From Tautonia marina (GTDB lineage: Bacteria; Planctomycetota; Planctomycetia; Isosphaerales; Isosphaeraceae), in assembly GCF_009177065.1 (NCBI RefSeq), contig NZ_WEZF01000006.1, positions 62,001 to 126,000 on the forward strand: DNA of 64,000 nt, given 5' to 3'. The notes beneath the pieces were generated by a model. The model saw nothing but the letters and a program-made list of their open reading frames with translations, was not told where the DNA came from and made no database searches. The translations under genes and the position numbers were made by a program. Each line of letters opens with the position of its first letter. Position 1 is the stretch's first letter. Shown here one piece after another: positions 3,974 through 7,281 of this stretch.

Positions 3974-4208
3974 GCGATCATCTCCTGAGTCGATTGTCCC
4001 GACCGGGCCTGCCCAGGCGTCCGGATTGCGACCGATCGGCCACTGGGTCAACACCTGGAACCGACGGTGCTCTGGCTCGTGAAACGGTCCGAACCGCGGT
4101 GGTGTCGCCGTGGAGTTCGGATAAGCTATGATACAACGTGCCGTGGGAAAAATGGGTTTCGGTGCGGTTGCGATTCACGAAACCTCATCTTCAGGATCGG
4201 AGACGCCG

Positions 4209-4820
4209 ATGGCTCGTATTCGATGGATTGCCGAGGACTCGGCCACCGGCCCCATTGCCGATGCCTACCGTGAATGGCAAGACGCAAACCCCGGACGGCC
4301 TGTCATCCCGGCGATCCTGAAGTGTTTCAGTCTTCGCCCCGACTTCTTTCGAGACGTAGTGGCGTTCTCCGACCGTCTGCACTTCTCCGAGGGGCATTTG
4401 ACGCGTCGGATCAAAGAAATGATCGCCACGTATGTTTCGGCGTTGAATCAGTGCCCTTACTGAACGGGATCGCACGCCTTTTTCCTGCAGTTGCAGGAAT
4501 CCGACCCCAATGTTTACGAGTCTCTGGCGAGGGGAGACCTTGACGGAGCGCCGCTTCCCCGTGTCGAGCATGCACTTCTCCAGTTCGTCGAAACCATTAC
4601 CAAACACGCCTACCGCGTGACTGACGAGCAGGTCGAACGGCTCCGAGAGATGGGATGGACCGACGAGCAACTGGCGGAATGCGTGTACATTGCTGCGCTT
4701 TTTGCGTTTTTCAATCGGGTGGCCGACGCGTTCGGGATTGAATTTCCGACCAACTTTGGAACACTCGCTTCCCGAGACGGAGACCCGCAACAGTCTGATC
4801 CCACTGAGGGGACCCCTTAA
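4209..4820 (+). CDS. AhpD-like / carboxymuconolactone decarboxylase-family protein, probable selenoprotein (in-frame TGA read as Sec85)
   Basis: A 203-aa AhpD-fold redox protein if TGA at 4461-4463 is read through. The reading Glu70...Cys82-Pro-Tyr-TGA85-Thr-Gly-Ser-His89 keeps the AhpD spacing Glu-(11)-Cys-(2)-Cys-(3)-His exactly, with TGA in place of the second (peroxidatic) cysteine, giving CxxU. Both sides of the TGA are in the same frame. The downstream half (LREMGWTDEQLAECVYIAAL, then FNRVADAFGI) is well conserved, which argues against a decayed gene. A SECIS-like hairpin lies at 4482-4499. ATG 4209 has GGAG 6 nt upstream. Its stop is 1 nt from the pxpB start. Alternatives are a nonsense mutation or a sequencing error. 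Selenocysteine machinery is not in this window. Confidence 0.8.
4482..4499 (+). promoter_or_regulatory. Putative bacterial SECIS hairpin
   Basis: A perfect inverted repeat, TTCCTGCA (4482-4489) and TGCAGGAA (4492-4499), can fold as a 7-bp stem with an AGUU loop. The loop G (4490) is 27 nt after the TGA, inside the window of roughly 16-37 nt typical for SelB-dependent bacterial SECIS elements, which need a G in the first two loop positions. It lies inside the coding region (FFLQLQES), as bacterial SECIS elements do. Confidence 0.65.
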
Positions 4821-4821
4821 C

Positions 4822-5493
4822 GTGATCGACCATGGCCTCGACCTGACACCACTCGGCGATCGGGCCTGGCTGGCTCGATTCCCATCGAATGGGCACGCGG
4901 CGTCGTGGGCCGAAGCGGTACGCGGTCGCTCCTGGTCAGGAGTGGTGGATGTGGTTGCTGCCTATCATTCCGTTGCGATCTACGTTGATCCGACAGTGAT
5001 CGATCCCGAAGACGTCGAACCGTTGCTCCGGAGTCTTTCCACGGACGAGATGTCCCAGAGGATCGGCCGGATGTTCCGTGTGCCGGTGCATTACAAGGGT
5101 GACGATCTGGTCGAGATCTCAAACCGGATCGGTCTTTCCATCGATGAAATTATCGATGTTCATGCCGGCAACGAGTATTCGGTTCAGGCCATTGGTTTTC
5201 TGCCCGGATTTCCGTACCTGGGAGAGCTTGCGGAACCACTGGCCGGATTGCCGAGGCGAGAAACTCCGCGCACGAGCGTTCCGGCCGGGTCGGTGGCGAT
5301 CGCCGGTCGACAGACGTGCATTTATCCCGAGGCATCACCGGGAGGCTGGCATCTGATCGGACAAACTCCCTTGATCCTGGCCGACCTGGCAGGCGGTTAT
5401 CTCCCGATGGCAACGGGTGATCGCGTCCGATTCGAACCGATTGATTGTCGTCGGTTTGAGGAGTTACGGGGATGTCGGATCGGCGAGTTCTGA
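4822..5493 (+). CDS. pxpB: 5-oxoprolinase subunit PxpB (KipI family)
   Basis: A 223-aa protein of the KipI/allophanate-hydrolase subunit 1 family. With PxpA and PxpC it forms the ATP-dependent prokaryotic 5-oxoprolinase, which opens pyroglutamate to glutamate. Family motifs are GFLPGFPYLGEL and PRTSVPAGSVAIAG followed by the SPGGWHLIG block near the C-terminus. No in-frame ATG exists near the expected N-terminus. GTG at 4822 gives the expected length and starts 1 nt after the stop of the AhpD-like gene, with GAGGGG at 4806-4811 as ribosome-binding site. Translational coupling with the upstream gene is likely. Confidence 0.92.
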   Translation: MIDHGLDLTPLGDRAWLARFPSNGHAASWAEAVRGRSWSGVVDVVAAYHSVAIYVDPTVIDPEDVEPLLRSLSTDEMSQRIGRMFRVPVHYKGDDLVEISNRIGLSIDEIIDVHAGNEYSVQAIGFLPGFPYLGELAEPLAGLPRRETPRTSVPAGSVAIAGRQTCIYPEASPGGWHLIGQTPLILADLAGGYLPMATGDRVRFEPIDCRRFEELRGCRIGEF

Positions 5494-5590
5494 TTCATGA
5501 ACGATCATTGTTCCGCAAGCTTGCTTGTGTTCGTTGAAGTGGCTTTTTGTGCGGTGCAATCTTCCCCACCATTCTCTCGGAGCCCCGCCG

Positions 5591-6328
5591 GTGAGTGTGA
5601 TGGTTTCTGAATCGCGTCGACTCATTGATCTGAACGCGGACCTCGGCGAAGGATTTCCAGACGATGAGGCGCTCCTCGATCGCATCAGTTCGGCCGGAAT
5701 CGCCTGTGGAGGTCATGCCGGTGACCGGGCGGTTTGCCTTCAAACGATCGAGATTGCCAGGCGCAAGGGGGTGATCATCGGAGCCCATCCGGGTTACCCC
5801 GATCGAGAAGAATTTGGACGTCGTGAACGGGTTGCGACAGCTGATGAGGTGGCCCGAATCATTGATGAGCAACTCTCTCAGTTTGCCTCATGGGCCGCGG
5901 AAGTCGGGGCGATCGTGCGGTTCGTCAAACCGCATGGAGCGCTTTACAATCAAGCCCAGCGCGATCTGGAAATCGCGGTCGGGGTCGTGACGGCGGTCCT
6001 CGATTGGGGGTTGCCGGTCCTGGGGCTGCCTGGCAGCGTGCTCGAACGCGAGGTCCTTCGGGCCGGCCTTTCCTTTGTTCCTGAAGGCTTCGCCGATCGA
6101 CGATACCGCCCCGATGGCACACTTGTGCCCCGTTCCGAACCAGAAGCGTTGATTGACGATCCAGGCGAATCCGAGCGGCAGGCGCTCATCCTCATTGATC
6201 GGGGGCTTCGAACGCTCTGTCTGCACGGTGATGACCCGACCGCGCTCGCCAAGGCCGATCGTTTGCGCGCGGCCTTCGGTCGTGCTGGAGTCGTTGTGCA
6301 GAGCTTTGTCGGGGACGGTGATGCGTGA
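5591..6328 (+). CDS. pxpA: 5-oxoprolinase subunit PxpA (LamB/YcsF family)
   Basis: A 245-aa member of the LamB/YcsF family, the second subunit of prokaryotic 5-oxoprolinase. Diagnostic blocks are IDLNADLGEG, GIACGGHAGD, GAHPGYPDREEFGR and VKPHGALYNQ, which carry conserved Asp and His residues, then VCLHGDDPTALA-type residues near the end. The start is either GTG 5591 (GGAG 8 nt upstream at 5579-5582) or ATG 5600; the former is preferred on spacing. A 97-bp gap follows pxpB, and the stop overlaps the pxpC start by 4 nt. Confidence 0.93.
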   Translation: MSVMVSESRRLIDLNADLGEGFPDDEALLDRISSAGIACGGHAGDRAVCLQTIEIARRKGVIIGAHPGYPDREEFGRRERVATADEVARIIDEQLSQFASWAAEVGAIVRFVKPHGALYNQAQRDLEIAVGVVTAVLDWGLPVLGLPGSVLEREVLRAGLSFVPEGFADRRYRPDGTLVPRSEPEALIDDPGESERQALILIDRGLRTLCLHGDDPTALAKADRLRAAFGRAGVVVQSFVGDGDA

Positions 6329-7281
6329 GTGAAGTTGAACGCGTTGACCCGTGCGCATTGACGGTTCTCCGAGCCGGAGCAAGTTCGACCATCCAGGATC
6401 TCGGGCGATCCGCCTACCGATCGCAGGGAGTTCCTCAGGGAGGAGCGTTCGATCGTTCGTCGCACGAGCTAGCTAACGCACTTCTGGGAAACAAATCGGA
6501 TGCGGCGACGGTCGAACTGACCCTCCTGGGCGGCGTCTTTCGTGCGGAAGTCCCGCTGGCAGTGGCCCTCGCTGGTGCGCCGATGGCCGTTCTCAAGCAA
6601 CGGCCCGATGGCACCCAGGATCGGTTCGAGGTTCCCATCGCTCTTGGGCTTCAGCCGGGAGACCTCCTCGAACTCGGTGGAACGGCGATCGGGGTTCGTA
6701 CCTACCTGGCCGTCCGGGGCGGCTGGCAGACCCCTCAGATTCTCGGTTCCCGATCGACCGAGCAGGCCCTCCGGGCCGGTGATTGCTTGCCGGCGATCCC
6801 AAGCTGGTCACCCGTGCGTCGGATCGATCCTGCCTTGTCCGATCGGATCGACTCCACACGACCAATTCGGATCATGGCTGGTCCTGATACCGCAATCATT
6901 CGCGACTCCTGCTGGCATCATCACGCCTTTACGGTGGCGGAAGCGAGCAATCGAATGGGCCTCCGACTCGACGGCCCGGGGCTGGAGGTCCTGGTGCCGG
7001 CTGATCGCCTCTCGGTGCCGGTGGCTCCCGGCGCGGTGCAGGTTTCGGGCGGGAAGTTGATTCTCCTGGGAGTGGCGTGCGGCACGATGGGAGGGTATCC
7101 GATGGTGGCCCATGCTGCCTCCTGCGACCTCGATCGCCTGGCTCAGGTCAGGCCCGGTGAGGATCTTCGTTTCGAGTGGATTGACGTGAACGAGGCCAGA
7201 CGGCTCGATCGAGCCGAACGGCTGCGGCGAGAACAGCGACGCCTCCGGATCGTCACCCTTGTCCGTGGCGGAAAGGTCTGA
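6325..7281 (+). CDS. pxpC: 5-oxoprolinase subunit PxpC (biotin-dependent carboxyltransferase-like family)
   Basis: A 318-aa protein of the KipA/allophanate-hydrolase subunit 2 family, completing the PxpABC 5-oxoprolinase. The N-terminal block TIQDLGRSAYRSQGVPQGGA followed by FDRSSHELAN is diagnostic, as is VSGGKLILLGVACGTMGGYP later. GTG at 6325 overlaps the pxpA stop (GTGA), implying coupled translation. The gene order pxpB-pxpA-pxpC with the AhpD-like gene in front forms one transcription unit. Confidence 0.92.
   Translation: MSEVERVDPCALTVLRAGASSTIQDLGRSAYRSQGVPQGGAFDRSSHELANALLGNKSDAATVELTLLGGVFRAEVPLAVALAGAPMAVLKQRPDGTQDRFEVPIALGLQPGDLLELGGTAIGVRTYLAVRGGWQTPQILGSRSTEQALRAGDCLPAIPSWSPVRRIDPALSDRIDSTRPIRIMAGPDTAIIRDSCWHHHAFTVAEASNRMGLRLDGPGLEVLVPADRLSVPVAPGAVQVSGGKLILLGVACGTMGGYPMVAHAASCDLDRLAQVRPGEDLRFEWIDVNEARRLDRAERLRREQRRLRIVTLVRGGKV

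Follow-up and report, generated by a model that had tools for sequence, protein, structure and literature searches.

We report that a gene at positions 4209-4820 (+ strand) of the window, as we call the whole 64,000-nucleotide stretch of Tautonia marina DNA analysed here, almost certainly encodes a selenoprotein of the AhpD-like, peroxidase-related family. The call is based, by sequence, on the open frame, on the selenocysteine (Sec) machinery of the host and on a UGA and hairpin kept across phyla, and, by a predicted model, on the fold; from these we infer Sec insertion itself, the peroxidase chemistry and the partner.

The gene and its reading frame

The features on which the argument turns are as follows.

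4209-4820, + strand: predicted Sec-containing AhpD-like gene (peroxidase-related, TIGR01926), 203 aa, with stop TAA at 4818-4820
4416-4418, + strand: codon of Glu70, predicted proton relay (relay residues from PMC3141380)
4452-4454, + strand: codon of Cys82, predicted resolving residue
4461-4463, + strand: in-frame UGA, putative Sec85, the second residue of the CxxU pair
4473-4475, + strand: codon of His89, predicted proton relay
4482-4499, + strand: candidate bacterial SECIS-type hairpin, with a 7-bp upper stem, loop AGUU at 4489-4492 including G4490, and 25 nt from UGA to loop

The original prediction had placed an in-frame TGA exactly at the second redox position of an AhpD motif, and the spacing is as it claimed, E70-x11-C82-x2-U85-x3-H89. 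Both flanks share one frame, which is open from 4209 to 4820 apart from the TGA at 4461-4463 (codon 85), so that read-through yields 203 amino acids; a GGAG at 4199-4202, read from the sequence, is a possible ribosome site. Gene calling with table 11 truncates the gene, splitting it into two fragments (4128-4463 and 4491-4820) just as had been anticipated. The full-length protein matches the NCBIfam family TIGR01926, 'peroxidase-related enzyme', at 100.6 bits, above the curated cut-off of 81.8, and Pfam CMD at 53.4 (cut-off 23). In a tree of 87 rows its nearest neighbour is the protein of Tautonia sociabilis, Isosphaeraceae (76% identity over 182 columns), and the fork that joins the two has support of 100/94.

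Conservation of both flanks, also part of the prediction, is borne out by low dN/dS on either side of the TGA. Against three relatives of the same genus (L023-L025), the ratio was 0.035-0.128 upstream and 0.068-0.088 downstream, while several rows with saturated synonymous sites yielded no ratio. A downstream value of 0.605 for L032 was discarded as unusable because a two-residue insertion breaks the ungapped comparison. An alignment of 28 sequences, that of the window among them, shows no variation at the motif residues E70, C82, U85 and H89 and almost none at Y84.

Sec machinery in the host genome

The host genome (7.07 Mb in 80 contigs) contains everything that a bacterial selenoprotein requires, and the search for sel genes by which the prediction was to be checked found all four: tRNA-Sec, selA, selB and selD. 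The tRNA-Sec scores 66.5 bits; ARAGORN calls it tRNA-SeC and gives its anticodon as TCA, and Rfam agrees. A second match above the tRNA-Sec family cut-off is a tRNA-Ser according to ARAGORN; the family's loose search also picks up tRNA-Ser genes. selA (431 bits) and selB (367 bits) adjoin on contig C3, and selD scores 350 bits. The host selD has an in-frame TGA of its own, close to the start of the match, and is itself a candidate selenoprotein gene. The suggestion that such a protein would extend Sec use in the phylum did not hold up as a novelty, since full Sec-insertion gene sets have been reported in the planctomycetes P1, P2, Gemmata obscuriglobus and Isosphaera pallida (PMC4807772).

Conservation of the UGA across genomes

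Some match to the AhpD-like protein was present in 51 members of a first sample of 59 genomes, the host's own included. TGA stands at the CxxU site in every one of the 13 best matches, again including our own (clade 1); in a more distant clade 2 (33-38% identity), 12 loci share it and the thirteenth has TGC. As a group, these clade-2 loci (L035-L047) fall in the same planctomycete family and have a conserved hairpin that differs from the clade-1 one. Matches that carry a TGA and lie below 1e-15 occurred in 25 genomes (own included), and SelA was above the cut-off in 25/25; among the remaining 34, SelA matched at 1e-60 or better in 12, and a looser tally gives some SelA-family match in 49/59. 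Weaker matches in three genomes that have no SelA (G010, G037 and G058) were also flagged with a TGA, which sits near or at the C-terminus; the CxxU site is Cys in all three.

A wider contig scan, for which the clade-1 alignment was used, yielded 79 loci, partly from the same genomes and biased to query-like proteins; 78 of them had a readable site: 76 TGA, one TGC and one GGG. By record title these 78 come from Planctomycetota, Acidobacteriota (33/78), Armatimonadota, Abditibacteriota and Chloroflexota, and also from two unplaced bacteria and a single MAG that is labelled Actinomycetota. Among the named strains represented are Tautonia sociabilis, Occallatibacter savannae and Acidicapsa dinghuensis. 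The two loci of the MAG labelled Actinomycetota (L073 and L126) group in the tree with Armatimonadota, Abditibacteriota and Planctomycetota rows, and that bin may be mislabelled or mixed. Close homologues therefore carry TGA and not Cys, the outcome that the prediction called for (13/13 in clade 1; 76/78 readable loci). In a phylum-wide sample, a match at 1e-25 was present in 91 of 392 genomes and an in-frame TGA in 90/97 rows. The place of the TGA was read there only among 30 fetched loci, the window's own being one of the 30; 26 of these gave 23 TGA, two Cys and one GGG, and four stand outside that tally, one of which (L135) has Cys. The rows without stops in G139, G416 and G423 likewise have Cys at the site. 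Taken together, the alignments indicate that the UGA is kept across phyla, beyond chance.

Three Cys orthologues (L093, L136, L137) group as a single clade amid the Sec rows (support 100/100), and L135, which lies at a contig end and is outside the tree, reads like L093. No SECIS-like hairpin was present in L136 or L137; that of L093 still folds, but neither of its first two loop positions is G. No selA match was found in the genomes of L135 (G305) and L137 (G338), and that of L136 (G379) has a selA match below the cut-off only. Outside clade 1, L037 has TGC although its genome (G016) has selA, and G139 has Cys although selA is present there too; lack of selA is therefore no requirement for a Cys form. 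The single GGG belongs to L127/L138, which share one sequence (L127:6148-6150), with the hairpin intact and selA in the genome; it may be a real change or an assembly artefact.

The SECIS-type hairpin

The loop G that had been predicted 27 nt past the TGA is present at 4490, and the hairpin fits the bacterial constraints given in a figure legend of PMC13188914: a loop of 3-9 nt, a stem of 4-16 bp, G in one of the first two loop positions and 16-37 nt from the UGA. Taken alone, the window hairpin has a z-score of -1.77, and equal or greater stability is reached by the hairpins downstream of 62 of the window's 1751 TGAs (both strands counted, its own TGA among the 62). We therefore rejected the hairpin as stand-alone proof: in a single sequence it is weak evidence, and conservation carries the weight. 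Among 76 distinct rows, 93.6% of pair cells show standard pairing, a share that drops to 43-57% once the partner is shifted by 1-3 columns. A column-shuffle control gives 92.9%, close to the observed value because the hairpin columns are so conserved.

Most planctomycete loci have the hairpin CCUGC-AGUU-GCAGG or CCUGC-GGUC-GCAGG, and in Acidobacteriota CCUG and CAGG enclose a loop of six bases. Of the 76 distinct rows, 33 do not form pair 28-33. The apical pair covaries, being A-U in 35 rows, G-U in 33 and G-C in 8, and seven of the eight G-C rows have the residues Arg-Ser in place of Gln-Leu. Leu at codon +10 is TTG in 40/40 cases (elsewhere in the same genes, TTG makes up 186 of 1127 Leu codons), Ser at that codon is TCG in 7/7, and Gln at codon +11 is CAG in 81/81. 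Codon choice under the hairpin is forced; because the rows are related, the counts give no independent-sample probability.

Gene neighbourhoods

Three genes follow the selenoprotein gene in the window.

4822-5493, + strand: pxpB-like gene (CT_C_D, PF02682), with a probable GTG start 1 nt past the selenoprotein stop; order kept in relatives
5525-6328, + strand: pxpA-like gene (LamB/YcsF, PF03746), whose true start may lie further in
6325-7281, + strand: pxpC-like gene (CT_A_B, PF02626)

We take these PF02682, PF03746 and PF02626 neighbours to be pxpB, pxpA and pxpC, with 5-oxoprolinase function. pxpB lies within the 1.5-kb downstream flank in 10 of the 13 clade-1 genomes, our own included; in G027 some 780 nt separate it from the AhpD-like gene, and in G008 and G025 it is not adjacent. 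Identity among the PxpB proteins of clade-1 genomes with the linked order falls to 50%, and gene order has therefore been kept over a long divergence. An upstream nucleoside hydrolase gene recurs, besides the window's own copy, only in L023. pxpB is present in 41/59 genomes, and the AhpD-like gene lies within the flank of 10 of the 30 pxpB loci fetched from these; in the wider sample, pxp genes adjoin in 7/79 loci. We therefore rejected the pxp link as a general feature outside the near relatives, among which the pxpBAC genes could tie the AhpD-like selenoprotein to 5-oxoproline metabolism.

A different neighbourhood is seen in Acidobacteriota. SelB is encoded upstream of the AhpD-like gene in 15 of 33 loci, selD, selA and selB are all upstream in 11, and SelB is missing from a full 6-kb flank in at least nine. 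Directly downstream in 17/33 is a deiodinase-family gene (for example L075:6528-7298), which in 17/17 cases has an in-frame TGA of its own (FGSYT-U-PPF). Ten of these 17 loci also follow selD-selA-selB, which places two selenoprotein genes and the Sec machinery in one cluster. The L075 copy, the one copy scanned, also matches AhpC-TSA and Redoxin. A deiodinase-like gene lies upstream in four other loci (L060, L061, L069 and L093); in the remaining 57 of 78, some with cut flanks, no such neighbour was found, with the exception of L121, where the gene is nearby on the opposite strand. The host genome has a Cys form of the deiodinase-family protein, unlinked and on another contig than the window. 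That protein is preceded by repeats that look EF-hand-like by eye; its gene shares a contig with selD, about 14 kb away.

The two neighbourhoods point to partners, 5-oxoprolinase genes in one case and, in the other, a deiodinase-family selenoprotein beside the Sec machinery. Rarer ORF clusters recur as neighbours too. A literature search, judged by titles and the starts of abstracts and covering few subscription journals, found neither a selenoprotein-pxpBAC cluster in Isosphaeraceae nor a selD-selA-selB-AhpD(U)-deiodinase-like(U) cluster in Acidobacteriota.

Fold and proposed mechanism

An AlphaFold2 model built with 28 sequences (pLDDT 89.6, pTM 0.84) predicts the all-helical fold of AhpD-like proteins, with C82 and U85 at the start of helix 83-94. 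With this predicted model as the query, the best VIA-align matches were 6k40, 2oyo, 3c1l, 2pfx and 2prr, at Z 22.5-23.5. The Glu, Cys, Cys(Sec) and His of a putative AhpD peroxidase relay occur at AhpD spacing.

We propose that SelB, Sec-tRNA and the hairpin at 4482-4499 would decode the UGA at 4461-4463 as selenocysteine to give a 203-aa AhpD-fold protein. Sec85, replacing the second AhpD cysteine, would be activated by a Glu70-Tyr84-His89 relay and attack a peroxide; as the resolving residue, Cys82 would turn the selenenic acid into a selenenylsulfide, and a thiol partner would reduce this in turn. That Sec85 is the attacking residue we infer from the match to the relay of M. tuberculosis AhpD.

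Alternative explanations

The selenoprotein reading of the original prediction is supported by the sel genes, by the conserved TGA at the CxxU site and by the conserved SECIS-type hairpin. Counting against it are the ordinary stability of the hairpin in a single sequence, the GGG of L127/L138 with hairpin and selA intact, the Cys of clade-2 L037 in a genome with selA, the hairpin still folded by L093, and the unformed pair 28-33 and close shuffle control. The supporting observations bear as well on the simpler explanations of an interrupted frame. Table 11 does break the frame, as would be expected if the TGA were a true stop in a recent pseudogene or a sequencing error for TGC or TGT, but the same TGA recurs in 76/78 loci from many assemblies, close relatives show purifying selection downstream of it, the hairpin is conserved and the sel genes are present. 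We rejected both on this cross-genome conservation and regard the chance of either as close to nil. It is also very improbable that the UGA is recoded as Cys or Trp, or simply read through: the open frame would accommodate this and nothing more favours it, whereas the complete Sec machinery with its TCA-anticodon tRNA-Sec, the SECIS-type hairpin, the lack of an above-cut-off selA in genomes whose close orthologues have Cys and the nearby selB in Acidobacteriota all argue for Sec.

What the selenoprotein does is a separate matter. We consider peroxide reduction, on the putative peroxidase chemistry above, to be probably its main job; the strong peroxidase envisaged in the original prediction is a weaker part of that claim. 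Against this stand the confinement of the pxp link to near relatives and the weak peroxidase activity of the AhpD-like PA0269 (PMC3141380). Less likely, and still a possibility of some substance, is that the protein serves mainly to reduce another thioredoxin-fold enzyme, such as the deiodinase-family protein, as a disulfide/selenenylsulfide adaptor. AhpD reduces AhpC, and an adaptor would suit the TGA-bearing deiodinase-like gene downstream in 17 acidobacterial loci and upstream in four others, the AhpC-TSA and Redoxin matches of the L075 copy and the Cys-form protein of the host; yet that protein is unlinked to the AhpD-like gene in the host, and the other 57 loci, L121 and cut flanks apart, show no such neighbour. 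More doubtful again is a specific version of this idea, in which the AhpD-like protein would be half of a selenium AhpC/AhpD couple that passes electrons to the deiodinase-family (AhpC/redoxin-like) protein, the two neighbouring selenoproteins being clustered with selD, selA and selB in Acidobacteriota and the AhpD-like half being re-wired beside 5-oxoprolinase genes in Isosphaeraceae. It is improbable that the protein is an AhpD-fold reductive dehalogenase of the kind represented by the debrominase Bmp8. Bmp8 is among the fold matches (6ohj and 6ohi; Z 17.6-17.7, 177 aligned) and a deiodinase-family gene is a recurrent neighbour, but the peroxidase-related structures fit better, Bmp8 identity is 15%, and no Bmp8 chain appeared in a sequence search at E up to 10.

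Comparison with known systems

M. tuberculosis AhpD (1knc, 1gu9) shares the Glu-x11-Cys-x2-Cys-x3-His motif on a two-helix hairpin, and its Glu118, Cys130, Cys133 and His137 give the same relay residues and spacing (PMC3141380). The window protein differs in having Sec for the second Cys and Tyr for His132, the latter as in PA0269 (PMC3141380); against the wild-type enzyme, the model scores Z 11.3-11.4 at 10-11% identity. The peroxidase-related AhpD-like structures 2prr, 2oyo, 6k40, 2pfx and 3c1l have the fold in common over the whole length at 22-29% identity, and in the three alignments examined (2prr, 2oyo and 6k40) Cys stands where the window protein has Sec. Two NCBIfam models whose titles allow Sec are also matched, with scores far under their cut-offs: NF041238, alkylhydroperoxidase-related (seleno)protein, at 70.8 (cut-off 175), and NF053654, '(seleno)protein', at 29.9 (cut-off 310).

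Sec in AhpD-like CxxU proteins has already been catalogued (PMC1088965, PMC2398784, PMC1794560, PMC13188914), including AhpD-like COG2128 as a selenoprotein (PMC1088965, PMC1794560) and, in a table row of PMC13188914, an AhpD-like CxxU selenoprotein under TIGR01926 itself. Since both this use of Sec and the planctomycete Sec machinery were known, the gene adds to a known family. The Sec form of the peroxidase-related family, known from marine fragments, is the usual form among the Planctomycetota and Acidobacteriota relatives found here, and its gene neighbourhoods suggest new partners for it. Compared with the catalogued TIGR01926 CxxU selenoproteins, which have the same NCBIfam family, the CxxU and a downstream SECIS-type hairpin (PMC13188914), the window protein shows no difference in kind; what it adds is the clade's own conserved hairpin sequence and these gene neighbourhoods.
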